Origin: Nitrospiria bacterium | GTDB taxonomy: Bacteria > Nitrospirota > Nitrospiria > DASWJH01 | Direction of reading: 5' to 3' | DNA: 35,648 nucleotides | NCBI GenBank assembly: GCA_036397255.1 | Contig: DASWJH010000034.1 | Span: 1 to 35,648 of the forward strand | In this document: piece by piece, positions 15,100-33,249 of the stretch | How positions within the stretch are numbered: position 1 is the stretch's first letter | Layout of the letters: each line of letters begins with the position of its first letter | Notes under the pieces: model-generated | What the model saw: only the letters and a program-made list of their open reading frames with translations | What the model was told of the DNA's origin: nothing | The model's database searches: none | Program-made: the position numbers and the translations under genes

Positions 15100-15100
15100 A

Positions 15101-17363: not shown

Positions 17364-17697
17364 CCCGAGAGGTTCTCCTTAGTAAAAGAATCACGGAAAG
17401 ACCCGCTGTAAAGATCACCACGGTCTCCCCGAGCGTGTCATACCCGCGATAACTGGCTAGAATCCCGGTGACCATATTCTCAACACCTGTCTCCTCTATA
17501 ATCTTTTCAATATATCGGGGAGCGACATGAAGATTAGCAGGAGCGTGGGGATCCCCGAATCCCGGCATATCCAATGTCCCATAGATCAAAACACCACCGG
17601 TTATAAAAACAATGAGAAAGGAAATGAAGTTAAAAACCCTTTTTCTCCTTTGATGGGTGTTTTGCTGACCCTGTGGATTTTCAATTGAAGGTTTCAT
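17356..17697 (-). CDS. MbhE-type subunit (equivalent of the MrpA C-terminal end)
   Basis: A 113-residue protein with an N-terminal basic tail, one membrane helix (about residues 22-42), a periplasmic-type segment with the family motif GDPHAPANLHVAPRYIE, and a C-terminal helix TLGETVVIFTAGLSVILLLRR. This matches the MbhE / MrpA C-terminal module (Pfam MrpA_C_ter-like). I take the start at 17697, where ATGA overlaps the preceding stop. A longer open frame from 17895 only reads through the neighbouring gene in another frame. In the plus-strand cluster the same region is fused to the MbhD part (24377-24907). Confidence 0.85.
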   Translation of the reverse strand: MKPSIENPQGQQNTHQRRKRVFNFISFLIVFITGGVLIYGTLDMPGFGDPHAPANLHVAPRYIEKIIEETGVENMVTGILASYRGYDTLGETVVIFTAGLSVILLLRRTSRDG

Positions 17698-17930
17698 TCT
17701 TCCTCTTTTCGCTTCGTCCGACTCAATGCGGCAATCAAAAGAACTGTTGTAATACCTGCCCCTACCGACGCTTCGGTAAAGGCCACATCCACTGCATTCA
17801 GGCGGGTCCAAACCAATGCCATCATCAAACTGTAGATTCCTAAAATCATAGTCGCACCGAGAAGATCTTTCATCTGAATGGCACCGATGGCGCAAATGAC
17901 CAAAATCAGTAGAAGGAGTATGTCAATCAT
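17694..17930 (-). CDS. MbhD/DUF4040-type subunit (MrpA C-terminal domain as a separate gene)
   Basis: A 78-residue, three-helix protein with the DUF4040/MbhD pattern: KDLLGATMILGIYSLMMALV followed by NAVDVAFTEASVGAGITTVLL. The acidic residues in DVAFTEA lie in the middle helix and are conserved in MrpA C-terminal, MbhD and the NuoJ-like position. It overlaps mrpG and the MbhE-type gene by 4 nt each (ATGA). Its separation from the following MbhE module contrasts with the fused copy in the other cluster. Confidence 0.87.
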   Translation of the reverse strand: MIDILLLLILVICAIGAIQMKDLLGATMILGIYSLMMALVWTRLNAVDVAFTEASVGAGITTVLLIAALSRTKRKEEE

Positions 17931-18310
17931 GGGATAGCATCTCCAGGTTTTGATGAGGAAGAATGGTGACCACCCTGGGTGGGATCTCCTTCGTTAGATG
18001 ATCCCGCCGGGGATTTTAACCAAGGTTTTAACCCAGCCAAATAAGCTGCCTTCGCAACCGCATGGGTAGCGGTTGGATTGGCGATAAAGATAAAAAGGAT
18101 TATCAACCAGAGTTTGATGCTTTCAAAGGAAAAGCCTTCATAGATAAACAACCCCACCAAAACAAAAACCTGCCCCATGGTATCTGCTTTTCCTGCGGGA
18201 TGAATCCTTGAGAAAAAATCAGGAAACCGGATAATTCCAATAGAAGCCACTAGAATAAAAAAACACCCAATGGCTAGAAAACCAGCTGATAATAAAACAT
18301 GAAATTCCAT
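17927..18310 (-). CDS. mrpG: Mrp antiporter subunit G
   Basis: A 127-residue protein, three helices then a polar tail, with the MrpG motifs GIIRFPDFFSRIHPAGKADTMG and NPTATHAVAKAAYLAGLKPW. The frame opens with TTG at 18313 and ATG at 18310. I chose the ATG, which overlaps the mrpF stop (TGATG). The C-terminal 25 residues (SPAGSSNEGDPTQGGHHSSS) are hydrophilic and longer than in the paralogue at 24048, and are probably disordered. Confidence 0.9.
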   Translation of the reverse strand: MEFHVLLSAGFLAIGCFFILVASIGIIRFPDFFSRIHPAGKADTMGQVFVLVGLFIYEGFSFESIKLWLIILFIFIANPTATHAVAKAAYLAGLKPWLKSPAGSSNEGDPTQGGHHSSSSKPGDAIP

Positions 18311-18567
18311 CAATCGAGGTTTCCGCTTTGGATATACTTCAATATAGCCACCGTTGCAATGAAGTTAATGATTGCATAAACCAGGGCAATATCCAAAAAT
18401 TGGGGGCGATCATATATAAAACCAATTAAGGCTAATAGGACCACGGTCTTGGTCCCTATCAAATTGGTGGATAAAATCCGATCAAAAACGGTGGGCCCAG
18501 AAAGGGCTCGATACAACACCACCAGTATGGCAATCACAACAAAGACCGCAGCAACTTGAAACATCAT
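18310..18567 (-). CDS. mrpF: Mrp antiporter subunit F
   Basis: An 85-residue, three-helix MrpF. The signature LYRALSGPTVFDRILSTNLIGTK and the later DIALVYAIINFIATVAILKY match the family. Two ATGs start the frame (18567, 18564). GAGGG inside the end of mrpE is the likely ribosome binding site. It follows mrpE by 6 nt. Confidence 0.92.
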   Translation of the reverse strand: MMFQVAAVFVVIAILVVLYRALSGPTVFDRILSTNLIGTKTVVLLALIGFIYDRPQFLDIALVYAIINFIATVAILKYIQSGNLD

Positions 18568-18573
18568 GATTTA

Positions 18574-19041
18574 TTAACCCTCAATGGGCTTAATTCGCTT
18601 TTCCATTTCCTGAAAGCTCTGAGCATCATATTCAGTGATGGCGTGAATGATATATTGGCCTTCTTCATCCACATCGATGGTGACGGTTCCCGGTGTCAGG
18701 GTAATCGAATTGGCCAAGGCCACCCTTCCCAATTCGGTCTTTAAACGGGTTTTGGTCTTCAAAATGCTGGGTTGTATCGGCATTTTCGGATGAAGGGTCC
18801 GGTAGGCCACATCGAGGTTGGCAATCACAATCTGATATAAAAACCAAGGCAGGTATTTTATAACCTGAAAGGTTTGGTTCATTAACGTTTTTAAACGGAT
18901 CCCTTGAAACAAAAATTCATGAGAAAAAAAGGCCACCCCATAGGAACAGACCACCCCCAACATCAAATGCATGGCATCGAAATGTCCGGATAACAGAATC
19001 CAGAATGAAAAAAGGACCCCAAAAGTCAATACAACACTCAT
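18574..19041 (-). CDS. mrpE: Mrp antiporter subunit E
   Basis: A 155-residue MrpE with two to three N-terminal helices, the YLPWFLYQIVIANLDVAYRTLHP segment, then the soluble domain containing LANSITLTPGTVTIDVD, which is nearly invariant in the family. The frame is open to an ATG at 19149, but I place the start at 19041. AAGGGG lies 5 nt upstream of that ATG, and a near-consensus promoter predicts a transcript start near 19066, inside the longer reading. First gene of the minus-strand operon. Confidence 0.9.
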   Translation of the reverse strand: MSVVLTFGVLFSFWILLSGHFDAMHLMLGVVCSYGVAFFSHEFLFQGIRLKTLMNQTFQVIKYLPWFLYQIVIANLDVAYRTLHPKMPIQPSILKTKTRLKTELGRVALANSITLTPGTVTIDVDEEGQYIIHAITEYDAQSFQEMEKRIKPIEG

Positions 19042-19072
19042 TTCCACCCCTTCAGGCTTATAAAGGGCTCTC

Positions 19073-19101
19073 ATTATAGAGGGCATATAAACCCAAATCA
19101 A
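19073..19101 (-). promoter_or_regulatory. Sigma70 promoter of the minus-strand Mrp operon
   Basis: Read on the minus strand: TTGATT (19101-19096), 17 bases, then a perfect TATAAT (19078-19073). The predicted start near 19066 gives a leader of about 25 nt with a good ribosome binding site before mrpE. Confidence 0.72.
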
Positions 19102-19531
19102 GCGCCTGAACCCGATGATGCTACCATCTTTTAGAAAAGTATTCTGCATCTAATTGAGTTCTTTTGCTTTATTTTAAAAAATATTTTAAAAAAGTTCCTC
19201 AGATTCTCATAAGGTAGCAGAAAATTTTTTCCTTCAAAAAAAACCGCCTTATGATTTAGATCGGCAGTTTGATCAAGTTTCATTAGAAAAATTTAAAGGG
19301 AAAAGATAAAAATAGTATATTATTTTTCCTTTTTTTAAGAGAAAAATATTTTTGAAATGGAAACCCGAAAAGAAAAGCTCAAAGAGGGGATACTAAAAGA
19401 AGCACTGGTTTTTTCTAATTTGAAATGTAACCTTCCAATAAAAACAAATCCTATTGTTTTTAAATCCCTTTTCAGATAAAATTGCGGAAATTTCCTGGGT
19501 ATAATTTATACCTCCTCATCCCAAGGGATTC
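19102..19531. other. Divergent AT-rich control region between the two antiporter clusters
   Basis: About 430 bases of AT-rich sequence with two near-identical ATTTTAAAAAA blocks near 19170-19195. TATAAT at 19500-19505 is a possible -10 for mpsC, but I find no good -35 at 16-18 bases. I see no gene here. Confidence 0.45.
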
Positions 19532-19915
19532 ATGAAACCCATAAAGAAAAAAGGCCAGATGGAAGCGGAAATCAGCAATGCCATGGTCCAGTTTGAAAAA
19601 GAATACATGGGAAGGGGGCCAATTGAAACCAAAACCTATATCATGGATGATATGATCCTGGTTCGTCTGAATGGGGTCCTTACCCATGCGGAACAGCAAC
19701 TGGCCAAAAACCCTACAGGGACGGAGCTCATTAAAAAAATTCGGGCCAATTTATTGGAACAGGCAAGGGCGTTACTGATCGAAACCATTGAAAAAATCGT
19801 TCCCGTAAAGGTTGTAAGCCTTCATACCGATATCAGCACAAAAACGGGTGAAAGGGTTATCATTTTTACCCTTATGGAAAATTTAGAGCAGCAGTTATCC
19901 AACCATTTTTCTTGA
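19532..19915 (+). CDS. mpsC: MpsC family protein (DUF2294), copy 1
   Basis: A 127-residue soluble protein of the DUF2294 family, named MpsC after the staphylococcal MpsABC system in which MpsA is NuoL-like and MpsB is the DUF2309 protein. Family features are the MEAEISNAMVQFEKEYMGRGP opening, DDMILVRLNGVLTHAEQQLA, then KIRANLLEQARALLIETIEKI and a final beta segment with STKTGERVIIFTL. The ATG has AAGGGA 5-6 nt upstream. The biochemical role is not settled; the family often sits with transport and DUF2309 genes. It precedes dabA on the same strand, and a second copy closes the cluster at 31058. Confidence 0.86.
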   Translation: MKPIKKKGQMEAEISNAMVQFEKEYMGRGPIETKTYIMDDMILVRLNGVLTHAEQQLAKNPTGTELIKKIRANLLEQARALLIETIEKIVPVKVVSLHTDISTKTGERVIIFTLMENLEQQLSNHFS

Positions 19916-20255: not shown

Positions 20256-23200
20256 ATGCCAATCGGAACTTTAGAATCAATTCATTTCAAAGCCTTAGAA
20301 AATTCCGAAAGAGCTCAAGTCCGCAACTGTGTTGATCAGGCCAATCAGTTCATCGCACGGTGCTGGCCACTGCGAACGTTTATATATCGAAATCCCCTTC
20401 AAGAGTTGGAACACCTCCCTTTCCACCAGGCCATCAACCAAGGACAGGATTTATTTGGAGGCCAGGGGTATCTTTCCAATGAATCTTATAGAAATCTTTA
20501 TCATTCAGGGAAAATAACCGACGCCTCCATTTTGGAGGCATTAAAAAAATCCCAGTGGCCTCTGGAGGTGGATAACATTCTCCCCCTTGGAAAAAAGAAA
20601 GTTGATCCAATTAAGATACTCAGACTCCATTTAATTTATGGAATGGATCCCATTCGTAATTCCATATTCCATTGGAGGGTGGGGAACGAAAAGATATTGT
20701 CCCGATACCGTTCGGATGTCCCCGTTTCAATCAGAAAAGACCCTGAAACAGGGATCATCCCTTTCCTCTGGCAGGGCATCTTGAGAACCTTGGGTATAAC
20801 CCATAACCTCGAATTCAAAGATAAATCCGAAAAGGACCCATCTTCCCCCACCACCTCCAAGGAAGGGGAAAATTTCCGGTTTTTTCTAATAGACCTTTCT
20901 AAGGTTGGAAACCGGTGGACTTTGGGTGATTGGATTCAGGAAATAACCGAGATCCCACTAAGAAAACAAATCGATGACCAGATGATAAAATGGTGTTCGG
21001 CTTTTTTAGATGAAGGCATGGCGTCCTGGGAAATGCCGTCTCGTGAAAAAGGTTTTTACCATTCGTGGCTAGATGTAGCTTCACTCGATCGATCGGCTGA
21101 AATCGGAAGAATAAAAAACTTTTCATATAAAATTCGGGGGCTTCCCCAGAACCCCGAGGACACCATTGCAGGATGCCTCACACAGATGGGTGTAAAAAAC
21201 CACCTCTGGCCCGATTATTTGAAACGTCACCTCTCTCAAATGCCAGGATGGGCAAGCTTCATAAAGTGGCGTACCAATGAGCCCGAAAATATCTGGCAAC
21301 AACTTTACCCCATTGATCCTACTCAATATTTGGCGGTCCGTCTTTTTTACGAGTCAGAACTGGTTGATTCCATTTGTCAAAAAACATGGAACATCAAAGG
21401 GTCGCTTTCCGAGATCCAAACCTTCTTTCGAAAATTTCCCGAAACTTATCCCCTGGCCAACCGGGGGGATGAGAGGGTTGAGAACCCGGCAGACCATTAT
21501 CGCTTGAACATCGCCTGGCGTTTTTTTAATCTTGCCCAATTTCTGGGTCTCGATCAGGATGATATTCAAAACCTTTCTCAAAAAGAGGTCAAAAAGGCAT
21601 TGGAACTCCTTGATGCCTTTCCATCGGAACACCATGGGGTTATTTGGCTTCAAGCCCTTGAGCTTTCCTTTCGAAAAACTCTTCTGGAAAAATTGAGTGC
21701 ACCCCATCAAAAGGATCCATCAAAGCCCCAAAGCGCCCCCCAAGCCCAGGCGATTTTTTGTATCGATGCCCGATCCGAATACCTTCGCCGCCACATGGAA
21801 AATATTGGCCCCTACGAAACATTTGGATTCGCTGGATTCTTTGGTGTTCCCATTTGTTTTCGCCCTTATGGATCAGACACCGAATGGTTGCTCTGTCCCG
21901 CTTTAATTAAACCCGAGAAAAGGGTCTTTGAAATTCCTTTGCCTGCGCATGAAAAAGAAACCCAGAAAAATGAAACGGGATCCAAATGGCATCATTCAGG
22001 GCACGGCATCTTCCATGATTTAAAAGCCAACAACTTCTCCGCTTATTTCCTGATTGATTTTCTAGGAGGTTTATTTGGCCTTACCTTTATTGCAAAAACG
22101 TTTTTCCCCTTCGCCTACCAGAGATTTCGTGAAAAGCTCCACCACCGATTGGTTCCAAAAGTTCCAACCCAGCTTCTCTTGGATCGCCCCTCTGAAGCGA
22201 ATTCATCAGAGCGAGGTAACGTGGGATTTACCCTCGAGGAGAAAACAACACTTTTAGAAAACGGCCTGCGACTAATGGGTTTAACAAACCATTTTGCGCC
22301 GGTGGTTTTTCTTTGTGCACACGGGAGCACCTCAGAAAATAATCCCTATGCGGCTGCATACGACTGCGGAGCTTGTGGAGGAAACCACGGAGGACCGAAT
22401 GCCCGGGCGCTGACCTCCATCGCCAACACCCCCGAAGTACGAAAGGCGTTAAAGGAACGGGGAATTGAAATTCCCTCTTCCACCCTATTTATAGCTGGGG
22501 AACATAACACCACAACCGATCAGGTCATTCTCCTTGATCAGGAAGCCATTCCTCCCTCTCATCACGCAAATGTATCCCAGCTTCAAAAGGACCTCGACCA
22601 AGCGGGAGGGTTGGCCGCTTTTGAGCGCGTTAAAAAGCTTCCCGGAGCCCCCCATGCAAAATCCGTTGAAAATACGTTCCGTCATGTCCGGCAAAGAAGC
22701 GGGGACTGGGCACAAGTCCGGCCAGAGTGGGGCCTTTCCAGTAACGCAGCCTTTATTATCGGAAGAAGAAAGCTGACTCAAGGAATCCCTTTAGACGGAC
22801 GGGTGTTTATGCATTCTTATGACCCGGAACAGGATGGGACCGGAAAAGCATTAGACACCATTATGACTGCCCCCCTGTTGGTGGTTCAATGGATTAGCAT
22901 GGAGTATTATTTCTCAAGCACGGATCCTTTGGTTTACGGAAGCGGGAGCAAAGTTTATCATAATGTTGTTTCAGGAGTTGGGGTTATTCTGGGTCGGCAG
23001 AGTGATTTAAGACCAGGTCTCCCCGTGCAGTCGGTCATGAACGGGGAGATTCATTTTCATGAACCCATGAGGCCTTTGGCCATTATTGAATCCCCTATTG
23101 AAAGGGTCCAGGGAATTATTGACCGCCATGAAAAACTTCAACAGCTTTTCAACAACCATTGGGTAAATCTTCTCGCTGTGGATCCCATCCTTGGGGTTTT

Positions 23201-23261
23201 TCAGGAATACCAAGGAAATGGACGCTGGGAAAGTTTAAACCTGAAAATCTCTTCCCCTTAA
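20256..23261 (+). CDS. dabA: Inorganic carbon transporter subunit DabA (DUF2309, MpsB)
   Basis: A 1001-residue cytoplasmic-face protein of the DUF2309 family. DabA carries a beta-carbonic-anhydrase-like zinc site and, with a NuoL-like partner (DabB/MpsA), converts CO2 to bicarbonate vectorially, powered by a cation gradient. The four site residues are visible: Cys502 and Asp504 in FCIDARSEYLRRH, His689 in CAHGSTSENNPY and Cys704 in YDCGACGGNHGGPNAR. The His-to-Cys spacing of 15 equals that of the studied Halothiobacillus protein. The N-terminus (NQFIARCWPLRTFIYRNPLQ) and C-terminus (EPMRPLAIIESP, NNHWVNLLAVDP) are typical. Here it heads an Mrp/complex-I-like membrane gene set, 38 nt upstream of mrpE, rather than pairing with a lone dabB. 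Confidence 0.95.
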   Translation: MPIGTLESIHFKALENSERAQVRNCVDQANQFIARCWPLRTFIYRNPLQELEHLPFHQAINQGQDLFGGQGYLSNESYRNLYHSGKITDASILEALKKSQWPLEVDNILPLGKKKVDPIKILRLHLIYGMDPIRNSIFHWRVGNEKILSRYRSDVPVSIRKDPETGIIPFLWQGILRTLGITHNLEFKDKSEKDPSSPTTSKEGENFRFFLIDLSKVGNRWTLGDWIQEITEIPLRKQIDDQMIKWCSAFLDEGMASWEMPSREKGFYHSWLDVASLDRSAEIGRIKNFSYKIRGLPQNPEDTIAGCLTQMGVKNHLWPDYLKRHLSQMPGWASFIKWRTNEPENIWQQLYPIDPTQYLAVRLFYESELVDSICQKTWNIKGSLSEIQTFFRKFPETYPLANRGDERVENPADHYRLNIAWRFFNLAQFLGLDQDDIQNLSQKEVKKALELLDAFPSEHHGVIWLQALELSFRKTLLEKLSAPHQKDPSKPQSAPQAQAIFCIDARSEYLRRHMENIGPYETFGFAGFFGVPICFRPYGSDTEWLLCPALIKPEKRVFEIPLPAHEKETQKNETGSKWHHSGHGIFHDLKANNFSAYFLIDFLGGLFGLTFIAKTFFPFAYQRFREKLHHRLVPKVPTQLLLDRPSEANSSERGNVGFTLEEKTTLLENGLRLMGLTNHFAPVVFLCAHGSTSENNPYAAAYDCGACGGNHGGPNARALTSIANTPEVRKALKERGIEIPSSTLFIAGEHNTTTDQVILLDQEAIPPSHHANVSQLQKDLDQAGGLAAFERVKKLPGAPHAKSVENTFRHVRQRSGDWAQVRPEWGLSSNAAFIIGRRKLTQGIPLDGRVFMHSYDPEQDGTGKALDTIMTAPLLVVQWISMEYYFSSTDPLVYGSGSKVYHNVVSGVGVILGRQSDLRPGLPVQSVMNGEIHFHEPMRPLAIIESPIERVQGIIDRHEKLQQLFNNHWVNLLAVDPILGVFQEYQGNGRWESLNLKISSP

Positions 23262-23299: not shown

Positions 23300-23785
23300 A
23301 TGTATACTGTAGGAACATTTACTCGAAACGCTTTCCTTTTATTTCTCCTTTGGGTGCTCCTTTCAGGGAGGATGGAACCCTTATTTCTGGTTCTGGGATT
23401 GGTCACTGCTGTCGGAATTTCAGCGTTGCACGGCCGGCATCCGGAACCACCCCATCCCACCATCCCTTTTTTCCGCTTTATGTTTTTCCTTCCCTGGCTT
23501 TTTTACAGAATCTTATTAAGTAATTTCCATACCGTCTTTTTGATTCTTCACCCCCGGTTGCCGATTAATCCCAAAATGATTCTATACCAAACCCACCTGC
23601 GAAATCCCGCTGCCATAACCCTACTGGCCAATTCAATCACATTAACCCCCGGAACGGTCACCGCCGAGGTAAATTCTTCGAACCTGGTGGTGCATGCTTT
23701 GGATGAAGATTCGGCAAATGACTTGGTCACGGATCGCTTGGAAAAAAAAATTTTTTGGGTTTTTGGAAAGAAAGGAACTCAATAA
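23300..23785 (+). CDS. mrpE: Mrp antiporter subunit E, dabA-linked copy
   Basis: A 161-residue MrpE with N-terminal helices, the LPWLFYRILLSNFHTVFLILHP segment and the conserved LLANSITLTPGTVTAEV stretch. AAGGAG lies 5 nt before the ATG. It overlaps mrpF by one base (TAATG). It is clearly paralogous to the minus-strand copy at 18574-19041 but diverged in the N-terminal helices. Confidence 0.92.
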   Translation: MYTVGTFTRNAFLLFLLWVLLSGRMEPLFLVLGLVTAVGISALHGRHPEPPHPTIPFFRFMFFLPWLFYRILLSNFHTVFLILHPRLPINPKMILYQTHLRNPAAITLLANSITLTPGTVTAEVNSSNLVVHALDEDSANDLVTDRLEKKIFWVFGKKGTQ

Positions 23786-24051
23786 TGTCAATATTTTTCC
23801 TTGGAATCCTGTTGGTTTTAGCCACCATCATTTTAATCTACCTTTACCGTGTTCTACAGGGACCAACGGTTTTCGACCGACTTTTAGGGTTAAATGGAAT
23901 CTCAAGTAAGGCCATTATGCTTCTAGTGATTATCGGAACCCTCTATGAAAGGGTGCCCATGTTCGTGGATATCGCCGTGGGGTATGCATTGATCAATTTG
24001 GTCGGCGCCCTAGCCGCAGCCAAGTATTTGGAGCATAAGGATTATAGATGA
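23785..24051 (+). CDS. mrpF: Mrp antiporter subunit F, dabA-linked copy
   Basis: An 88-residue, three-helix MrpF with LYRVLQGPTVFDRLLGLNGISSKAI-type signature and DIAVGYALINLVGALAAAKYL. I place the start at 23785, where ATG overlaps the mrpE stop (TAATG); an upstream ATG at 23755 only reads back into mrpE. It overlaps mrpG by 4 nt (ATGA). Confidence 0.91.
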   Translation: MSIFFLGILLVLATIILIYLYRVLQGPTVFDRLLGLNGISSKAIMLLVIIGTLYERVPMFVDIAVGYALINLVGALAAAKYLEHKDYR

Positions 24052-24386
24052 GCGTTTTGGTGGTCGTTCTCATTTTGACTGGACTTTTTTTTCTGATCGT
24101 TGCCGCCATCGGGATGATCCGTTTGCCGGATGTTTTTACCCGATCCCACGCCCTAAGCATCACCGATACCCTGGGTATCGGCCTTGTGCTATCCGGACTA
24201 GCCCTTTATCAAGGATTCACCGACAGCGCGTTGAAAACGGTCCTCATCCTAATCCTGTTGTATCATCTAAATCCCGTCATTTCTCATGCTACCGTGAGGG
24301 CCGCATTGAGATCCGGCCTTAAACCGTGGACCCGGGAGAATCCCAAACAGGTTCCTCAAGAAAAAGAGGAGAAAAAATGTATTTAA
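24048..24386 (+). CDS. mrpG: Mrp antiporter subunit G, dabA-linked copy
   Basis: A 112-residue MrpG with GMIRLPDVFTRSHALSITDTLG and NPVISHATVRAALRSGLKPW. Where the minus-strand copy has RIHPAGKADT, this one has RSHALSITDT, a change in the conserved loop. It overlaps mrpF by 4 nt and the following fused subunit by 10 nt. Confidence 0.9.
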   Translation: MSVLVVVLILTGLFFLIVAAIGMIRLPDVFTRSHALSITDTLGIGLVLSGLALYQGFTDSALKTVLILILLYHLNPVISHATVRAALRSGLKPWTRENPKQVPQEKEEKKCI

Positions 24387-24907
24387 CGGTCGCCATCCCC
24401 CTATTGATTTTACTGGTTCTCACCGCCGCAGGAGCCATTTTTGTGAAAGATTTGATAGGTTCGGTTTTTATCCTGAGTTCCTACAGTTTTTTCCTTGCCC
24501 TTCTTTGGGCCTGGCAAGGAGCGGTGGATGTGGCATTCACTGAAGCCGTAGTGGGGGTGGGGTTGTCCACCATTTTTCTTCTACTTACTTTATTTTTGAC
24601 CGGTTCCGACATCAGCCAAACCCGGTACTATCGTTCCTCCTGGATGGTCCTGGTAGGCCTTGTGGGATTGGGGTTTATTATGGTATTCGGTGCCCAGGAT
24701 TTACCCCGTGTTGGTAATCCCGCCTCTCCGGCCAATACCCATATCTCCCCCGCCTACCTTCGACAAAGCCTGAAAGAGACCCAAACCCCCAATGTGGTCA
24801 CATCCGTGCTGATGGATTACCGTTCCATGGACACCCTGATCGAAACCACTGTAATTTTTACTGCAGGAATTGCAACCAGTCTGCTCTTAAGAAGGAAACC
24901 GGAATGA
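24377..24907 (+). CDS. Fused MbhD-MbhE-type subunit (MrpA C-terminal region)
   Basis: A 176-residue membrane protein joining two modules that are separate genes in the minus-strand operon. Residues about 1-75 are DUF4040/MbhD-like (KDLIGSVFILSSYSFFLALL, AVDVAFTEAVVGVGLST). Residues about 85-176 are MbhE-like (GNPASPANTHISPAYLRQ and TLIETTVIFTAGIATSLLLRR). The ATG at 24377 has GAGGAG 5 nt upstream; an in-frame ATG at 24326 lies inside mrpG and adds only polar residues. It overlaps mrpB by 4 nt. It supplies the part of MrpA that contacts MrpB/C in known Mrp structures. Confidence 0.9.
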   Translation: MYLTVAIPLLILLVLTAAGAIFVKDLIGSVFILSSYSFFLALLWAWQGAVDVAFTEAVVGVGLSTIFLLLTLFLTGSDISQTRYYRSSWMVLVGLVGLGFIMVFGAQDLPRVGNPASPANTHISPAYLRQSLKETQTPNVVTSVLMDYRSMDTLIETTVIFTAGIATSLLLRRKPE

Positions 24908-25353
24908 TCTTCCCCCACGATAGCACCATTGTAAAAACACTCAGTCGCATTTTGATTCCGGTAATACAGCTTTACGCGGTCTACCTCATTTTTCATGCCC
25001 AGTACAGTCCGGGAGGAGGATTTGTGGGGGGGGTTCTATTCGGGGTGAGCCTGATTTTAACGGTACTGGTTTTTGGAAGCCGCTATTCCCGAGGGTTTAT
25101 TGAAAGGGTGGCCTTTCGGTCCGATGGCCTGGGTTTAATGGTCTTTGGAGGAATTGGACTCCTTTGCATTCTTTGGGGTGGAGAGTTTCTCAATTACGCC
25201 GCACTTCAAATCCCCGGGTTGGAAAACCCCTCCAAGCGGGCTTTGGGAATTGTTGGAACCCAAATCGGAGTTGGGATTGATGTGGCCGTTGTAGCCATTT
25301 CGATTTTTTTTAGTTTATCCCCCCAGGAAAATGAGGAGGATACCCATGTTTGA
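24904..25353 (+). CDS. mrpB: Mrp antiporter subunit B, dabA-linked copy
   Basis: A 149-residue MnhB-domain protein with LSRILIPVIQLYAVYLIFHA, the glycine-rich YSPGGGFVGGVLFGVS segment and GTQIGVGIDVAVVAISIFF in the last helix. It starts with ATG overlapping the previous stop (ATGA). The mrpC start lies 8 nt inside its 3' end. Confidence 0.92.
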   Translation: MIFPHDSTIVKTLSRILIPVIQLYAVYLIFHAQYSPGGGFVGGVLFGVSLILTVLVFGSRYSRGFIERVAFRSDGLGLMVFGGIGLLCILWGGEFLNYAALQIPGLENPSKRALGIVGTQIGVGIDVAVVAISIFFSLSPQENEEDTHV

Positions 25354-25720
25354 AATTTTTTTTTCTCGGCCCAATTTTATGGCGTTTATCCTCCTCTTTC
25401 TTTTCGGGCTTTTCATCATGGTCACCCATAAGAATCTCATTAAAAAGTTGATTGGAATGTACCTTTTACAAACCAGTGTCATCCTGTTCTTTGTTGCCCT
25501 GGGAGTAAAGGAAGGGAGCACGGTTCCGATCCTCCTTTCCCCTGAATATTCCCAGGGGGCCTCCTATGCCAATCCTCTGCCCCAAGTTCTGATGCTCACC
25601 GCCATTGTGGTGGGTGTGGCAACTCTGGGCGTCTCATTGGCCCTGGTTATTGCCATCTATCACCGGTATAAAACTCTGGAAGAGGATGAACTCGTCAAAA
25701 GGCTGGAACCTGGTGAATAG
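25346..25720 (+). CDS. mrpC: Mrp antiporter subunit C (NuoK-like), dabA-linked copy
   Basis: A 124-residue, three-helix NuoK homologue with HKNLIKKLIGMYLLQTSVILFF and NPLPQVLMLTAIVVGVATLG. The start at 25346 has GAGGAGG at 25333-25339, whereas the upstream in-frame ATG at 25331 overlaps that site. The loop between helices 2 and 3 (VPILLSPEYSQGASYA) is slightly longer than in the minus-strand copy. Confidence 0.9.
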   Translation: MFEIFFSRPNFMAFILLFLFGLFIMVTHKNLIKKLIGMYLLQTSVILFFVALGVKEGSTVPILLSPEYSQGASYANPLPQVLMLTAIVVGVATLGVSLALVIAIYHRYKTLEEDELVKRLEPGE

Positions 25721-25766: not shown

Positions 25767-27236
25767 ATGATGACTAACCTCCCCGCTTTTTTATTTTTAA
25801 TTCCCTTCGTGGTAGCTATCTCTATGCCCATGGTGGGCCTGATTCGCAAAAACGTCTGCTGGCCTGTGGCACTTGTGGCACTCTCCTCCATGAGTGTGGT
25901 TTCTTTTTTTGCTTTTCACCATGTCTATTTGAATGGACCCATCAGTTACCGGTTTGGTGGGTGGGCCCCTCCTCTGGGTATTGAATGGGTATTGGATGGG
26001 CTGAGCGCCTTGGTGATGATACTGGTTAGCCTCATGGGCCTTCTGACGGTGTTTTATGCAGGGCCGGGTGTCCAAAAAACCATGAGCCAAAAAATCGTGC
26101 CTATTTACACGCTGGTCTTGCTTTTAATTTCAGCGCTGACCGGGATGGTCATGGCCGGGGATCTTTTCAACCTCTTTGTGTTTTTAGAAGTGGCTTCCTT
26201 GTCCGCTTATGCATTGGTGGCCGTGGGGGGAGGGCGTGCCTTGATTTCATCTTTCCGCTATTTGATGCTGGGAACCATCGGAGCCTCGTTTTATCTGCTG
26301 GGTGTGGGATATCTCTACGCAGCCACCGGAACCCTAAATATGGGAGATCTGTCTCTTCGCCTTTCAGAAATCTTGGAATCCCGTACTGTCCTTTCAGGGG
26401 TTGTGTTCCTGCTGATGGGACTGGCGATCAAGATGGCTTTGGTTCCGTTACATGGATGGCTTCCGGACGCTTATGCCCATGCCCCGGAACCCATCTGCCC
26501 CATCGTCGCCGCATTAATGACCAAGGTTGCACTTTATGCACTGGTTCGGATCACCTTTTGGGTTTTGGGAATTGAAACCATTTTTGGAAATATTCCTTTT
26601 ATGGTTTACCTTGGATGGATTGGCGCCATTGCGACATTGGCTGGAGCGCTCCTTGCTCTCTCTGAAAAAAACATCAAGCGCATGTTCGCCTATGGCGGCT
26701 TGTCCCATGTTGGGCTTGTGGTGCTGGGTATTAGTCTGGGGAACAAGACCGGTTACACCGGCGGGATTTTTTATTTGTTAAACGATGCGGTGATGCAGGC
26801 TGGATTGTTTTTTATAGCAGGGACCCTAATATACCGATACGGGGTAAAAAACGTCTCTGATCTTACTCAAATTGGAGGGAAAATGCCCTGGACGGTAACC
26901 GCCTTAATTGTCACAGCATTGTCAATGGTCGGAATCCCTCCCACAGGGGGATTTTTCGGAAAATGGTATCTTGTTCTCGGCGCATTGGAAATCGGAAATT
27001 ACCTTGCAGTAGCCGTCATTATTGTGGGCACGCTGCTGACCTTAGCGTTTTTTATAAAAATCCTGGAAAAGATGCTTTTTGAGGAAAGGCAGGCCCCGAA
27101 GCTTCCCGGTTTAGAAGCACCATTTCCCATGCGGTTGGGAATGGGAATGGTGGTGGTCAGCATTTTGGTGTTGGGAATTTTCAGTGATCCAACGATTCAA
27201 TTAATTCAAAACGTCGCCCTTCCCTCTGGGTTCTAG
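25767..27236 (+). CDS. mrpD: Mrp antiporter subunit D, dabA-linked copy
   Basis: A 489-residue, 14-helix ion-translocating subunit. Conduction residues are intact: Glu141 (LFVFLEVASLSAYALVA), Lys222 (GLAIKMALVPLHGWLP), His229 and Lys253 (ALMTKVALYALVRI). The DAYAHAPEPICPI segment after the TM7 motif is unlike the NAYTYAPSVVG of the minus-strand copy, so the two are well-separated paralogues. It follows mrpC after 46 nt with no strong ribosome binding site (ATG at 25767 or 25770), the loosest junction in the first half of this operon. Confidence 0.91.
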   Translation: MMTNLPAFLFLIPFVVAISMPMVGLIRKNVCWPVALVALSSMSVVSFFAFHHVYLNGPISYRFGGWAPPLGIEWVLDGLSALVMILVSLMGLLTVFYAGPGVQKTMSQKIVPIYTLVLLLISALTGMVMAGDLFNLFVFLEVASLSAYALVAVGGGRALISSFRYLMLGTIGASFYLLGVGYLYAATGTLNMGDLSLRLSEILESRTVLSGVVFLLMGLAIKMALVPLHGWLPDAYAHAPEPICPIVAALMTKVALYALVRITFWVLGIETIFGNIPFMVYLGWIGAIATLAGALLALSEKNIKRMFAYGGLSHVGLVVLGISLGNKTGYTGGIFYLLNDAVMQAGLFFIAGTLIYRYGVKNVSDLTQIGGKMPWTVTALIVTALSMVGIPPTGGFFGKWYLVLGALEIGNYLAVAVIIVGTLLTLAFFIKILEKMLFEERQAPKLPGLEAPFPMRLGMGMVVVSILVLGIFSDPTIQLIQNVALPSGF

Positions 27237-27267: not shown

Positions 27268-29460
27268 ATGACCTGGTTTTTTATTCTAATCCCTTTGCTT
27301 CCTTTTACCGCTTTTCTTTTCCTGGTGCTATTTGGCGGACGGATAAAGGACCAATGCCATCGATTGACCATTCCGGCGTTATCCCTTTCCTTCCTTTTTT
27401 CGGTCATCGCCTTCTATACCATTTTAAAATCAGGCCCCATCCGTTTGGACCTCTATACCTTTATCGATTCAGGAACATTAAAAGTAGACCTGGGTCTTTA
27501 CCTCGACTCCCTTTCGGTTCTTCTCCTTTTATTGGTTACCGGTGTAAGCACCCTTGTTCACATCTTCTCTTCCCGCTATATGCAGGGAGACCCTCGGTAC
27601 CCCCGATTCTTTGCCGTCATTTCTCTTTTCACCTTTTCAATGCTTATGCTGACCATGAGCACCAACCTCTTCATGCTTTACCTATTCTGGGAAATCATGG
27701 GAATCTGCTCCTATTTGTTGATTTCCCATTGGGCAGAAAATCGATCTTCCTATGAATCAGCCATGAGGGCATTCTTAGTCAACGCAGCCGCTGATATCGG
27801 TCTTGGGTTGGGTATTTTTCTCACTTTTGTGACCTTTGAAACATTGGACATTCAACAGATACTGGCCGGGGCAGAAACCAAAGTGGGTCAAACGGTCAAT
27901 CTCCTTGGGTGGTTGGGCCTCCAATGGAACGTTGAAGTCCTGACCCTGATCGCATTGTTACTATTTCTCGGGGCAATGGGTAAATCAGCCCAATTTCCTT
28001 TCCACATTTGGCTTCCCTTTTCCATGGAAGCCCCTACACCGGTCTCGGCCCTGATTCACGCAGCAACGCTGGTAAAAGCCGGTGTCTTTCTTGTTCTTCG
28101 AATGAGCCCTTTGTTCATTCTATCTCCTACCGCGATGAATGTGATGATCATCATCGGGGCAATAACGGCTTTTTTAGGTGCAACGGTCGCTTTAACACAA
28201 ACGGATATCAAAAGGATCTTGGCCTATTCCACCATGAGCCAATTGGGATTGATGATACTGGCTTGCGGTGCGGGAGCCTTTATCGCCGCTACATTTCACC
28301 TGCTGGCCCACGGGGCCTCAAAAGCTTTTCTATTCCTCTCTGCCGGAAGCGCCCTCCAACACCTTGAAGCAACTCCTCACGTTGAAAAAGAAGAACAACC
28401 AACAGCATGGTTTGCCTTCCCCCCTTCTACTTTAATCAGTGCGTTCTCTTTAGCTTGGCTTTCCCCCGTGTTGATTGCCTTGAGCGGATATGGAATGCTC
28501 TGGTTTAGTCCGAGGTCTAACGGACTCTCTCCTCTGTTTTGGTTCATTGCCTTAATGACCGTTTTCCTTACGGCTTTGCATCTTTCCAGAGGGTTAAACC
28601 GTGGAACAAACAAAAAAATGGGCCCGCCCGGGGTCACCCCTTCATTGGTATCTCCCAACTCCTCACTTTTTTTGGGTTTACCAGGCCTTGGCCCAGCGGT
28701 ATTGATTGCCACTATTTCCAGCTTGGTTCTCGCCGGGGCACTTGCCTGGTTCTGGGGCGGTATCACCACATTTCTTTACCCCACGGTGGCACTTTCGGAG
28801 TTACCCCCAAACCCCTCCAAATTGAGTTTTTTCACCATGATGCTTATATTGGCAGGGTTTGGTGCAGCTCTTTTAGGCCTAATCTTTTCGCAGTTTAATC
28901 TTTATGGATTCATCCAAGGTTCTCCAAAAAGGGTGGGATGGTATAAGCGGTTTTATGTTCTGACCCATAACAAATGGTACATGGATGAAATCTGCGATGC
29001 CTATATCGTTCGCCCAAATTTAAAGTTTTCCCGCTGGCTTTGGGAGGCCGTTGATATGCGGCTCATTGAACGTTTCACCCTGTTTTCAGCGGATGGTACC
29101 GTTTCATTTTCCAGGTGGTTATGGAAATCTGTGGATGTTCGGATCATTGGGAGGGTGATTGAAGGAACTGCCGGATTGACTGTCGGTTTGGCGCGCTGGC
29201 TTTGGGCCTCCGTAGACATTCGCGCGCTGGGATGGCTAGTGGATGGAACGGCAAAAATCACCCAACAAACGGCGGGGTGGCTTTGGCGCTCTGTGGATAT
29301 CCGCTGGTTAGAGCGATTTGTAAATGGCATTGGCAGAAAAAACGAGGCTGCTGGACAAACGCTTCGTGAAATTGAACCCAGCATGCTTCAGCATCAGTTA
29401 TTGGTCATGATCTTTGCGTTGGTTGCGGCATTGATTCTTTTTCTACTATTCTTACTATAA
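27268..29460 (+). CDS. nuoL: NuoL-like antiporter subunit with four C-terminal 27-residue repeats (possible DabB-type partner)
   Basis: A 730-residue membrane protein. The core has Glu142 in TM5 (YLFWEIMGICSYLLIS), Lys239 in TM7 (GAMGKSAQFPFHIWLP), His246 and Lys270 in TM8 (MEAPTPVSALIHAATLVKAG). The N-terminal part is NuoL-like; the VKAG ending of the TM8 motif is MrpA-like. After about residue 560 the NuoL-type NKWYMDEICDAYIVRP segment leads into four exact-length 27-residue repeats (residues 588-695), each beginning (S/A)(R/G)WLWxxVDxR, then a final membrane helix. In complex I this area is the long lateral helix along the membrane arm. It may be the DabA partner or an arm-extending subunit. 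Upstream lies a small ATGATT-AGG-AATCAT palindrome. Confidence 0.88.
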   Translation: MTWFFILIPLLPFTAFLFLVLFGGRIKDQCHRLTIPALSLSFLFSVIAFYTILKSGPIRLDLYTFIDSGTLKVDLGLYLDSLSVLLLLLVTGVSTLVHIFSSRYMQGDPRYPRFFAVISLFTFSMLMLTMSTNLFMLYLFWEIMGICSYLLISHWAENRSSYESAMRAFLVNAAADIGLGLGIFLTFVTFETLDIQQILAGAETKVGQTVNLLGWLGLQWNVEVLTLIALLLFLGAMGKSAQFPFHIWLPFSMEAPTPVSALIHAATLVKAGVFLVLRMSPLFILSPTAMNVMIIIGAITAFLGATVALTQTDIKRILAYSTMSQLGLMILACGAGAFIAATFHLLAHGASKAFLFLSAGSALQHLEATPHVEKEEQPTAWFAFPPSTLISAFSLAWLSPVLIALSGYGMLWFSPRSNGLSPLFWFIALMTVFLTALHLSRGLNRGTNKKMGPPGVTPSLVSPNSSLFLGLPGLGPAVLIATISSLVLAGALAWFWGGITTFLYPTVALSELPPNPSKLSFFTMMLILAGFGAALLGLIFSQFNLYGFIQGSPKRVGWYKRFYVLTHNKWYMDEICDAYIVRPNLKFSRWLWEAVDMRLIERFTLFSADGTVSFSRWLWKSVDVRIIGRVIEGTAGLTVGLARWLWASVDIRALGWLVDGTAKITQQTAGWLWRSVDIRWLERFVNGIGRKNEAAGQTLREIEPSMLQHQLLVMIFALVAALILFLLFLL
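29029..29352 (+). repeat. Four tandem 81-bp coding repeats in the nuoL-like gene
   Basis: Four in-frame units of exactly 81 bp encode SRWLWEAVDMR, SRWLWKSVDVR, ARWLWASVDIR and AGWLWRSVDIR starts at a constant 27-residue period. The second halves also align (IEGTAGL, VDGTAKI, VNGIGRK). NuoL proteins usually have about one such unit. Confidence 0.9.
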
Positions 29461-29518: not shown

Positions 29519-31054
29519 ATGGACAATCTTCTTCAAAACCATCTTTTAAGCATCATTCTCTTTTTTCCCGCCTTGGGGATGACCATCATGGCGTTTGTTA
29601 AACATCCCACGGTAGTGCGTTGGATCGCACTTGGCTTTTCCATGGTCACATTTCTTCTATCGCTCCTTCTATGGTTCCGGTTCGACCCCAATCACCCAGG
29701 CATGCAGTTCGTTGAACAGGCTGAATGGATGCCGACCTTTAACATTCAATATGCAATCGGCATTGATGGAATTAGTATTCTCATGGTCATGCTCACGACG
29801 CTCTTGACGCCATTATGCGTCATTTGTTCCTGGACCAGCATACAGGAAAGGATTAAGACCTTCCTTATGCTTATTCTTTTGGTAGAAACGGCCATGCTGG
29901 TGGTATTCACCGCCTTGGACCTTTTCCTGTTTTTCATGCTGTGGGAAACCACCATGATTCCCATGTATTTTATAATCGCGCTCTGGGGAGGCCCTCGGCG
30001 AATTGCGGCCGGTCTTAAATTTGTGATTTACAGCATTGTCGGAAGCCTTTTCCTTCTGGTTGGGATTTTAGGTCTTTATCTTGAAGGCGGAAAAACCTTT
30101 GACATAATCATTTTAACCTCCCAGATTTATTCCGGAGACGCCCAATTTTGGATTTTCCTGACCTTGTTTTTAGCCTTCGCAATTAAACTGCCGATGTTTC
30201 CTTTTCACACCTGGCTTCCAGACGCCCATGCGGAGGCCCCCACCGCAGGAAGCGTTATCTTAGCGGGCATTCTATTAAAAATGGGGGGGTACGGTTTTCT
30301 CCGGTTGGTTTTACCCATGCTTCCCGAAGCCATGGTCACTTTTACGCCCTGGGTATTGTGGCTTTCGATTATAGGGATTTTGTATGGCGGTTACATGGCA
30401 CTTGCGCAAAGCGATATCAAGCGACTCATTGCTTATTCTTCCATTTCACACATGGGGTTCGTCACCCTTGGAATCTTTGTTTTGAACAAACAAGGGATTG
30501 AAGGGGCAGTCCTTCAGATGTTTAACCATGGCATTACGACAGGGGCATTATTTTTTGCGGTTGGTTTTCTGTATGACCGTACCCATAAAAGAATGATTTC
30601 CGATTATGGTGGGCTTCATAAACCCATGCCCCGTTTTATTACATTTTTCTTTATTTTTTCAGTTGCATCCTTCGGGCTTCCAGGAACCAATAACTTTATT
30701 AGTGAATTTCTGGTGTTGATAGGAACCTCTCTTCATAGCTTCATCATGGTGATCCTGTCCATAGGAGGGATTCTTCTCGCCGCATCCTATATGCTTTGGA
30801 TGATGCAACGTGTGGGATTGGGTCAGATCAAACATCAAAGCAACGCATCTTTACCTGACCTGACACCTCGTGAAACCGCCACTTTGGTTCCTCTAATCAT
30901 TTTGGTCTTCTGGATTGGTCTCTATCCGCGACCCTTTTTTAAAATAATGGATTCCAGTGTAACACACCTGCTCAGGATGATCCCCTCGGCTCAGGGGACT
31001 ATTTTAAAAACAGAAGACAGCCCATCTCAAAAGAATGCGAATCCAGGAGGATAA
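29519..31054 (+). CDS. nuoM: NuoM-like antiporter subunit
   Basis: A 511-residue, 14-helix protein closer to complex I NuoM than to MrpD. It shows the opening PALGMTIMAFV, AIGIDGISILMVMLTTLLTP, Glu143 (FFMLWETTMIPMYFIIALWGG), Lys223 (FAIKLPMFPFHTWLPDAHAEAPT), His230 and Lys254 (LLKMGGYGFLRL). SISHMGFVTLGIF and GTNNFISEFLVLIG are also NuoM hallmarks. No NADH- or quinone-module genes accompany it. The ATG at 29519 has no obvious ribosome binding site. The downstream mpsC begins 4 nt after its stop. Confidence 0.92.
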   Translation: MDNLLQNHLLSIILFFPALGMTIMAFVKHPTVVRWIALGFSMVTFLLSLLLWFRFDPNHPGMQFVEQAEWMPTFNIQYAIGIDGISILMVMLTTLLTPLCVICSWTSIQERIKTFLMLILLVETAMLVVFTALDLFLFFMLWETTMIPMYFIIALWGGPRRIAAGLKFVIYSIVGSLFLLVGILGLYLEGGKTFDIIILTSQIYSGDAQFWIFLTLFLAFAIKLPMFPFHTWLPDAHAEAPTAGSVILAGILLKMGGYGFLRLVLPMLPEAMVTFTPWVLWLSIIGILYGGYMALAQSDIKRLIAYSSISHMGFVTLGIFVLNKQGIEGAVLQMFNHGITTGALFFAVGFLYDRTHKRMISDYGGLHKPMPRFITFFFIFSVASFGLPGTNNFISEFLVLIGTSLHSFIMVILSIGGILLAASYMLWMMQRVGLGQIKHQSNASLPDLTPRETATLVPLIILVFWIGLYPRPFFKIMDSSVTHLLRMIPSAQGTILKTEDSPSQKNANPGG

Positions 31055-31057
31055 TCA

Positions 31058-31417
31058 ATGGATTCTTTAAAAAACCTTGAGAAAAAAATTTCAGTTGATT
31101 TTTCTGACTTTTATGAAAAAGAAATGGGTTTTAAGCCTCCTCTCGTAAAAACCGCCATACAGGAAGACCTCCTCATTATTCGTATTGAAAATGCTCTGTC
31201 CCCTTCTGAAATTATTTTGATCAGCCAGGAAACAGGAAAAAGATTAATCAAAGAAATGAATGAAAAATTGGCTGAGGAAATATTACCTAATTTACAAATC
31301 GTTCTTTTTCCTTTGACGGGGAAAAAAGCAGTCGGACTTGAAATCGAGCTTCATGAACGGGGCCACGAAAAAGTGTTCCTGATCACGCTAGAATCTCCTA
31401 ATGAAGTCTCTTCTTAA
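31058..31417 (+). CDS. mpsC: MpsC family protein (DUF2294), copy 2
   Basis: A 119-residue soluble protein that aligns along its length with copy 1: an N-terminal helix SDFYEKEMGFKPP, the DLLIIRIENALSPSE strand-helix, a LIKEMNEKLAEEILPNLQIVL segment and a C-terminal GHEKVFLITLE strand. Identity to copy 1 is low by eye, so it is an old paralogue or a different subgroup. GGAGG lies upstream and it starts 4 nt after the nuoM-like gene, so it is co-transcribed. It ends the dabA-Mrp-Nuo operon. Confidence 0.75.
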   Translation: MDSLKNLEKKISVDFSDFYEKEMGFKPPLVKTAIQEDLLIIRIENALSPSEIILISQETGKRLIKEMNEKLAEEILPNLQIVLFPLTGKKAVGLEIELHERGHEKVFLITLESPNEVSS

Positions 31418-31896: not shown

Positions 31897-32883
31897 ATGG
31901 CCGAGTTTTTTCAGCATTCACTCAATAACTTTCTTTCCCCGATGATCTTGTTTTTCATCTTGGGATGGGTGGCTGTATTGGCAAGGGCTAAAATGGAGCT
32001 CCCTGAAGAAATGGTCCGGGCCATGTCCTATTACCTCATGGCATCCATCGGGTTAAAGGGAGGCATTGAACTTGCCCACGAGGGGTGGAGTGTTTCAGTA
32101 ATCCTGGCTTGCCTGGCTGGTGTCTTTTTGGCAGGGTTACTTCCGGTTATTGGCTACGCAATCATCCGATGCTTCAGCGGCCTTTCGGCATTGAATGCGG
32201 CCGCTATCGCGGCCCACTATGGATCCGTCAGTGCAGTGACTTTCCTAACCGCTGCAACTTTTTTGACACGGCAAGGATATACCTATGAGGGGTACACAAT
32301 TGCGATGATGGCAGTAATGGAATCCCCCGCCATCGCCGTTGGAATCCTCCTCGCACGGCTTTCCTCTCAGGCTTCAACGCAATCCGATGGGGATACCTCT
32401 TTTAAAGAAATTCTCCGGGAGTCTCTTTTTAACGGTAGCGTGATGGTCCTTATGGGGGCCCTCATTATCGGAGCCCTCACAGGCGATCGGGCCCAAGAAG
32501 CCGTTGGCCCATTTTTCTTTAACCTCTTTCAAGGGGTGCTCTGCCTCTTTTTATTACACATGGGGGTTGAGGCCGCAAAACGTTTTTCAACCTTCAGGGA
32601 AGTAGGCGTCTTTCTAACCTTTTTTGGCCTTCTCATGCCCTTGATCGGAGCGAGTCTTGGGCTGTTCACAGGATGGCTGCTGGGTTTATCCGCGGGAGGA
32701 ACCATGTTGATTGCCATTTTGGGAGCCAGTGCTTCCTATATTGCCGTCCCCGCTGCCATGCACTTGGCCCTTCCCAAGGCGAACACGGCTTATTCCATGA
32801 CCCTTGCACTGGGCATCCCCTTTCCATTTAATGTCATTTTAGGAATCCCGCTTTACTTTTGGATTGCCCGGTTGATCACATAA
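31897..32883 (+). CDS. sbtA: Sodium-dependent bicarbonate transporter SbtA
   Basis: SbtA imports bicarbonate with Na+ across the inner membrane. The 328-residue product is an all-helical protein with two similar halves of about five helices. Family segments visible are FFILGWVAVLARAKMELPEE, YYLMASIGLKGGIELA and AAIAAHYGSVSAVTFLTAA with YEGYTIAMMAVMESPAIAVG. The last of these carries the conserved ligand-site stretch of the SbtA (PF05982) family. The central loop (about residues 155-175, SSQASTQSDGDTSF) is short compared with the cyanobacterial protein of about 370 residues, where this cytosolic loop is part of regulation. AAGGAGGGG precedes the ATG. sbtB follows after 18 nt. Confidence 0.92.
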   Translation: MAEFFQHSLNNFLSPMILFFILGWVAVLARAKMELPEEMVRAMSYYLMASIGLKGGIELAHEGWSVSVILACLAGVFLAGLLPVIGYAIIRCFSGLSALNAAAIAAHYGSVSAVTFLTAATFLTRQGYTYEGYTIAMMAVMESPAIAVGILLARLSSQASTQSDGDTSFKEILRESLFNGSVMVLMGALIIGALTGDRAQEAVGPFFFNLFQGVLCLFLLHMGVEAAKRFSTFREVGVFLTFFGLLMPLIGASLGLFTGWLLGLSAGGTMLIAILGASASYIAVPAAMHLALPKANTAYSMTLALGIPFPFNVILGIPLYFWIARLIT

Positions 32884-32901
32884 TCAAGGAAGGAGAAAAC
32901 C

Positions 32902-33249
32902 ATGGCTTTTTACCCGAGACTTCAAACCATAAAAAAACTAGAAATCGTAATTGAGACCATCAAGCTGGACCAGGTCATCCAAATCATTGAAGAGGCAGGG
33001 GCTTCTGGATATACGATTCTCCCTTCCGTCACCGGTCGCGGAACCCGTGGACAACGGTTGGGGGGAGGTCTTACCGATGTATTTAAAAACGCCATGGTCA
33101 TCACACTGGTGGATGAGGCCATCGCCACCAAAATTCTTCAAAAAGTGGAACGGCTCATTCAAAACTTTGCCGGAATGGCCGTGGTCACCGATGCCCTCGC
33201 CCTCTGGCCAGATTACAGCCAAGAAACCCCTAAACCCCCTGGAACCTAA
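32902..33249 (+). CDS. sbtB: PII-like regulator of SbtA (SbtB-type)
   Basis: A 115-residue PII-superfamily protein with KKLEIVIETIKLDQVIQIIEEAGASGYTILPSV-type core, a T-loop region GRGTRGQRLGGGLTDVFKNAM and the C-terminal KILQKVERLIQNFAGMAVVTDALAL strand-helix. SbtB proteins are trimers that bind adenine nucleotides (cAMP, AMP, ADP or ATP, c-di-AMP in cyanobacteria) and gate SbtA. The cyanobacterial C-terminal CGPxGC redox loop is absent; the tail is short and proline-rich without cysteine. AAGGAG lies 6-7 nt upstream of the ATG. Adjacent and downstream of sbtA as in known pairs. Confidence 0.88.
   Translation: MAFYPRLQTIKKLEIVIETIKLDQVIQIIEEAGASGYTILPSVTGRGTRGQRLGGGLTDVFKNAMVITLVDEAIATKILQKVERLIQNFAGMAVVTDALALWPDYSQETPKPPGT

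Follow-up and report, generated by a model that had tools for sequence, protein, structure and literature searches.

The window, the whole 35,648-nucleotide stretch of DNA analysed here, encodes a NuoL-derived subunit of 730 amino acids (here NuoL*; 27268..29460, forward strand; open reading frame matching NDH_I_L, PF00361 and PF00662, modelled with AF2) whose extended lateral helix contains four units of exactly 27 residues. We consider it somewhat probable that its gene cluster specifies a proton-driven CO2-hydration complex in which DabA sits on the NuoL-derived subunit, with a brace helix that would have grown by whole-unit duplication. What the sequences show is the units themselves, the quantised length of the helix, the conserved synteny, the loss of particular residues, the grouping of all such proteins in one clade and the varying number of units.

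The four units, delimited by period analysis, occupy residues 588–614 (29029..29109), 615–641 (29110..29190), 642–668 (29191..29271) and 669–695 (29272..29352; all forward strand), the last being followed by a C-terminal anchor helix. Unit starts fall at residues 588, 615, 642 and 669, and each unit opens with (S/A)(R/G)WLWxxVDxR, the WLWxxVDxR part beginning at residues 590, 617, 644 and 671. Compared with itself, NuoL* has 42 identities at a lag of 27 versus no more than 12 at any other lag between 18 and 39, and its BLOSUM self-score at lag 27 (197) was reached by none of 5000 shuffles (lags 15–44; best 40). These comparisons and the motif positions confirmed the four exact 27-residue units at residues 588–695 that an earlier note on this DNA had described. 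The period score of NuoL* (0.481) was the highest among the 54 open frames of at least 110 amino acids in the window, followed by those of a 42-residue-period protein at the window edge (0.439) and of the antisense frame of the NuoL* repeat (0.333). The edge protein is an open frame running off the end of the stretch (1–648, reverse strand), and its period looks like a beta-propeller repeat.

The earlier note had also suggested recent unequal crossing-over. Between the units of the window gene, amino acid identity is 33–48% and nucleotide identity 42–56%, 4–10 of the 9–13 codons for identical residues differ, and Tandem Repeats Finder did not detect the array in the DNA. Because identity between units is low at both levels and the DNA repeat finder was blank, we rejected a recent duplication in this gene and regard its units as old, with the period still exact. 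Twenty-seven residues correspond to 7.5 turns of a 3.6-residue helix, which is not a whole number, so successive units would be out of phase and may be hinged; the lack of phase counts against the brace proposed below.

NuoL* matched the NDH_I_L profile at 456 bits, above its cut-off. A structure search with the full-length AF2 model (mean pLDDT 77, pTM 0.77) returned E. coli NuoL as the best match (Z 42, about 510 aligned residues at 2 Å); the top matches were NuoL/ND5 proteins (Z about 37–42) and reached up to about residue 630. DabB2 was not among the 50 structure matches listed, which carries no weight either way. The model has the TM15, lateral helix and terminal helix of complex I NuoL, and the units fall within that lateral helix, which joins TM15 to the terminal helix. 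Helices in the repeat region were predicted at residues 569–621, 624–647 and 655–702, with a block pLDDT of about 42–73. The C-terminal 171 residues folded alone gave a mean pLDDT of 44, which carries no weight as evidence of shape. In both models the helix is interrupted close to the VD of the second and third units, a hint only, and a hydrophobic-moment scan had a weak peak at 90–95 degrees, to which we give no weight. The repeats are likely to be helical, as modelled, at a low pLDDT that leaves a straight brace unestablished; AF2 predicts helix, at low confidence, in place of the disorder that the earlier note had held would speak against its proposal.

A single (L/M)WxxxD unit was found by eye at the same place in 28/28 ordinary complex I NuoL loci of the class (L011–L038), in line with the one unit or so that the earlier note had expected there, and likewise in L003 of the window's own genome. 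None of the 28 has the four-unit C terminus, whose presence in ordinary NuoL the same note had set against its own reading. NKxYxDE and the C-terminal anchor are mostly 54 or 55 residues apart in ordinary NuoL versus 135 in the window NuoL* (+81), and this distance grows by whole units, from 54 to 81, 107/108 and 135, in a table that leaves out 27 NuoL-like ORFs without clear anchors and to which L078 was added by hand. This growth and the NuoL fold bear out the placement of the units in the lateral helix, each restarting the ordinary NuoL unit motif. Among 86 NuoLs of the examined loci, the same distance was 50–56 (n = 52), 79–86 (n = 16), 104–108 (n = 4) or 131 (n = 1), with 10 having no anchor and 3 (58, 68 and 97) looking mis-anchored; lateral helices grow in steps of about 25–27 residues. 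Such a step makes about 39–40 Å of helix at 1.5 Å per residue, or roughly one antiporter-like subunit.

NuoL* lies in no complex I setting; its neighbours are DabA and Mrp genes, all on the forward strand. An MpsC-family protein (19532..19915; PF10057) stands upstream of DabA (20256..23261; PF10070, 873.7 bits), a protein of 1001 amino acids with the zinc motifs CIDxRSE, HGS and DCGAC and, by alignment to DabA2 of PDB 9rd0, a membrane finger. There follow MrpE (23300..23785; PF01899), MrpF (23755..24051; PF04066), with Asn in place of the cation-path Asp35, MrpG (24048..24386; PF03334), an MbhD/MbhE-type subunit equivalent to the C-terminal part of MrpA (24326..24907; DUF4040; PF13244, PF20501), MrpB (MnhB; 24904..25353; PF04039), the NuoK-like MrpC with its cation histidines replaced (25331..25720; PF00420) and MrpD (25767..27236). 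After NuoL* come NuoM (29519..31054; NDH_I_M, 608 bits, above its cut-off) and a second MpsC-family protein (31058..31417; PF10057). The Mrp subunit set (B–G plus the C-terminal part of MrpA) is present, MrpD being assigned by best NCBIfam matches that are MrpD models, none above its own cut-off. No nuoB–I genes of a redox arm were seen in the NuoL* cluster, and a reading of the window's ORFs alone recognised neither CupA nor a photosynthetic complex I redox arm. Directly after the cluster, and in favour of the CO2-hydration reading, lie an SbtA-like bicarbonate permease, named by reading and with no NCBIfam match, and a PII-like small protein with a weak family match (31897–33249, forward strand). 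A second, separate Mrp-type cluster with three antiporter-like subunits (11596–19149, reverse strand) stands back to back with the DabA cluster.

We searched the window DabA against 395 genomes of the phylum, of which 169 have some DabA and 19, including the window's, have the long type (E of 1.8e-247 or better). Twenty stretches were examined, comprising the other 18 long-DabA genomes, the DabA of genome G302 and the NuoL* locus of genome G039. NuoL* was readable in 15 of them; the remainder end within MrpD (L075) or at a contig end (L081, L056), hold the G039 DabA alone (L073) or have no such cluster (L086). The last of these carries a 1482-residue open frame with a DabA of related type (11978–16423) and no Mrp/NuoL cluster nearby. 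In a scan of named genomes covering the best 80 of 593 relatives, the top four hits had the same cluster: Pseudohongiella (L088), an Acidobacteria MAG (L089), Nitrospina (L090) and another Nitrospinae MAG (L091). The resulting 20 NuoL* proteins (the window, 15 loci and four named loci) span four phyla, the window's own plus Nitrospinota, Acidobacteriota and Pseudomonadota. A 2M-type complex I in the window's genome, together with the Nitrospira literature, suggests Nitrospirota as the window's phylum. The order MrpE-F-G-DUF4040-B-C-D-NuoL*-NuoM was conserved in 20/20 loci, 19 of them carrying DabA as well; in the exception, G039, DabA lies about 260 kb from the cluster, which counts against the one-complex reading. 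In two genomes (L078, 6570–12671; L075, 7021–13169) two DabA systems are nested: a conventional DabA/DabB pair, encoded on the other strand, separates the long DabA from MrpE.

Ten of the 20 NuoL* proteins have four units, nine have three, one has two and none has one; for the window and the 15 loci of the phylum search the split is nine with four and seven with three. In these 16 proteins the unit spacing was exactly 27 in 41/41 intervals, and the proteins fall into two size groups of about 698 and 725 amino acids, one unit apart. Irregular units do occur: they are blurred in L088 and L070, the third unit of L070 being degenerate, and the last unit of L085 is short by one residue. A tree built with 11 of the 14 ordinary NuoL proteins picked (all except L106, L112 and L153) separated every NuoL* from the ordinary proteins by a branch supported at 100/100. 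The Nitrospinota pair, with two and three units, nests inside family f12. Unit number changes about 5–6 times in the best tree, and at least three changes are forced by well-supported branches. Recent whole-unit copies were found in L074 (units 2 and 3; 93% amino acid and 95% nucleotide identity) and L091 (units 1 and 2; 78% and 85%). Unit number was constant among the sampled members of the genera g32 (4/4), g21 (4/4) and g28 (3/3). The earlier note would have counted variable repeat number among close strains against its proposal; the number does vary between genera and phyla, and among sampled congeners it is constant. Gene content stays the same at two, three or four units: units come and go whole, with no matching change in the genes of the cluster.

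The residues of NuoL* point to a DabA partnership. With E. coli NuoL numbering assigned by position relative to residues named in PMC13144422, TM12 Lys399-Asp400 is present in 36/36 ordinary NuoL versus 0/20 NuoL*, and Arg175 in 35/36 versus 0/20. NuoL* retains Glu144, Asp178, Lys229 and the central residues. Loss of the TM12 Lys-Asp and of Arg175 is as would be expected of a DabA partner, by analogy with DAB2, in which finger residue Glu444 of DabA stands in for Lys399/Asp400 (PMC13144422). In the window DabA, Asp601 occupies the finger carboxylate position. That residue is Asp in 24/26 DabA rows, the two conventional DabA having Glu, and the zinc motifs occur in 26/26, a set in which the window is counted twice (as L039 and as the window) and from which the motif filter missed the L089 DabA. 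Two ordinary DabB, encoded inside two of these loci, lack the Lys-Asp and Glu144 and keep Arg175, so that, judged by alignment, NuoL* and DabB break the same Glu144–Arg175 ion pair from opposite sides. NuoL* scored 428 bits against complex I NuoL, and the two DabB compared scored 249–254 bits against NuoL*. The sequences fit recruitment of NuoL* by DabA independently of DabB.

The Mrp base is altered as well. MrpF Asp35, a residue of the Na+ path that PMC7419157 calls invariably conserved, aligns with Asn47 of the window MrpF, and the position is Asn in 17/21 and Ala in 4/21; in B. subtilis, the same change to Asn had a mild effect (PMC7419157). At the positions of MrpC His37 and His40 we found Thr and Ile/Leu in 21/21; MBH-type MrpC likewise lacks these histidines. 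The channel residues Glu141, Lys222, Lys253 and Lys399 of MrpD and Glu143 and Lys223 of NuoM were kept in 21/21. The Mrp and NuoM subunits of the cluster thus appear to have kept their proton channels and lost their cation ligands, a contrast that the mild B. subtilis effect and the state of MBH-type MrpC speak against. The MbhD glutamate, which we take to be equivalent to E706 of MrpA, seems kept in the cluster, so some cation route may remain.

In the hybrid inorganic-carbon complex that we propose, NuoL* would be the distal subunit and carry DabA, with NuoM and MrpD next in the row as proton channels and, after them, an Mrp-type base with an altered cation site (MrpC, MbhDE, B, E, F and G). 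Inward protons passing through NuoL* and the DabA finger would drive CO2 hydration, by analogy with DAB2, and NuoM and MrpD would probably add proton steps to the coupling. The NuoL* lateral helix would act as a brace along the subunit row; through tandem copying of its 27-residue contact unit it would have gone from one unit to two, three or four. We infer the assembly into one complex, the direction of flow and the course of the extra helix, which may continue across the Mrp base or onto a neighbouring complex. The second to fourth units may contact the Mrp base, another protomer, several copies of NuoM or MrpD, or no partner at all. In E. coli, lengthening the lateral helix between NuoL and NuoM by six or seven residues removed most proton pumping (PMC3274701); since such short insertions are harmful, exact steps of 27 suggest a phase or spacing rule. 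A bolder version, which we put forward tentatively, makes the complex a redox-free counterpart of NDH-1MS, in which DabA would replace the distal NuoL half-channel, several antiporter-like subunits would couple more than one proton to each CO2, and the row would be held by a lateral helix longer than any other observed here in the complex I superfamily, made of two to four interchangeable 27-residue units whose number evolves independently of gene content.

The variable unit number could have other origins. A strict ruler, on which each added 26–27-residue unit spans one further antiporter-like subunit and four units mean three extra pumps, from other loci or from multiple NuoM/MrpD copies, applies to NuoL* a logic already in print for 2M complex I and Complex_I_3: Yu et al. 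2022 (PMC9040806), and Chadwick et al. 2018 as cited there, pair one insert of about 26 residues with one extra pump subunit. Three loci with two NuoM genes (L131, L141 and L157) fit this rule with one added unit, as does the window genome's own C59 cluster, where a 2M-type NuoL (L001) with a linker of 79 shares its contig with four antiporter-like genes. However, counted per locus, about 80 residues are found with only one NuoM and one NuoN-like gene in seven ordinary loci, and about 105 in two (L143 and L150). The latter NuoL genes (L150, 4753–6846, from Caldisericales; L143, 1132–3402) look like ordinary complex I NuoL with about three units beside the single NuoM and NuoN-like gene in view. 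NuoL* itself, at +81 relative to 54, contains the insert of about 26 residues known from the 2M type, whereas the extra NuoM of that type is absent, each NuoL* locus read having a single NuoM and a single MrpD. As orthologues with two, three and four units share the same three antiporter-like operon genes, the one-insert-per-extra-pump idea does not explain NuoL* unit number; counts of units against antiporter-like genes did not uphold the strict ruler, and we regard it as unlikely. What stands of the earlier note's proposal that the lengthened helix clamps extra subunits is that DabA, MrpD and NuoM adjoin; unit number as a count of clamped subunits is not supported in the form proposed. Neutral drift is somewhat easier to credit, though still rather improbable in our view: once two units exist, unequal crossing-over would add or drop whole units in an overhanging helix of low function, with selection on phase only. 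The recent copies in L074 and L091, the repeated changes in the tree and the decayed units of L070 and L088 are what drift would produce, but one-unit NuoL* is absent among the 20, unit number is constant within the three sampled genera, and old units have retained the motif.

Two further explanations detach the repeats or the cluster from CO2 hydration on a braced row. The cluster might be an ordinary group-3 Mrp Na+/H+ antiporter enlarged by two antiporter-like subunits, suited to saline or alkaline life, with DabA merely a neighbour; nuoL- and nuoM-like genes beside Mrp have been noted in Nitrospira papers and read as antiporter subunits, that is, as extra mrpA/mrpD-like genes (PMC7784846, PMC12342949). 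We doubt this, given DabA on the same locus in nearly every case, the loss of MrpF Asp35 and both MrpC histidines in 21/21 and the loss of the TM12 Lys-Asp from NuoL*. Still less probable is that the repeats act not as a brace but as a docking strip binding DabA or soluble partners (MpsC, PII-like) on the cytoplasmic face. The lateral helix does lie on the cytoplasmic side, and conserved Trp and Asp recur in each unit, but the same unit occurs in ordinary NuoL without DabA, and the DabA finger would dock in TM12–14 rather than in the lateral helix (PMC13144422).

Several known systems come close to the proposed DabA-carrying complex. Like the 2M complex I NuoL of Nitrospira and the MrpD2 of Complex_I_3 (PMC9040806), NuoL* has about 26 residues added in the lateral helix; unlike these proteins, which have one added unit, a redox complex I and an extra pump, it has one to three added units, no redox arm and no extra pump gene in the operon. 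With DAB2 (PMC13144422; PDB 9rd0) the NuoL* cluster shares the DabA zinc site and finger and a NuoL-like partner without the TM12 Lys-Asp and with the Glu144–Arg175 pair broken. DAB2, however, consists of DabA and one DabB with a short lateral helix, whereas NuoL* appears nearer complex I NuoL, has kept Glu144 and lost Arg175, and belongs to an Mrp/NuoM cluster. The Mrp/MBH membrane module likewise has MrpB–G and MbhD/E-type subunits, and its MrpA braces by a lateral helix (PMC7419157); in the NuoL* cluster MrpA is divided, a NuoM has joined and other residues stand in place of the MrpF and MrpC cation ligands. Cyanobacterial NDH-1MS, in which CupA is carried by NdhF3, the last subunit of the row (PMC6981117), also has a CO2-hydrating protein on a NuoL-type subunit of an antiporter-like row, the arrangement proposed here; it differs in being redox-driven and in a CupA fold unlike that of DabA, and the NuoL* cluster encodes no redox arm. 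The COGNAT paper noted NuoM beside some ybcC(DabA)–nuoL pairs (PMC5700660). A search of a largely open-access body of papers found no description of repeated NuoL units or of the full DabA–Mrp–NuoL–NuoM cluster.

Whether the lateral helix of complex I acts as a piston, clamp or scaffold has long been argued. Nature supplies, within one clade and on a constant set of subunits, lateral helices with about 27, 54 and 81 extra residues, which makes the question testable. This series also means that an insert of about 26 residues alone is no proof of an extra pump subunit, a step used in genome reading. If the products form one complex, some autotrophs would have a CO2 pump on a complex I/Mrp chassis that the literature covered here takes for a salt antiporter.
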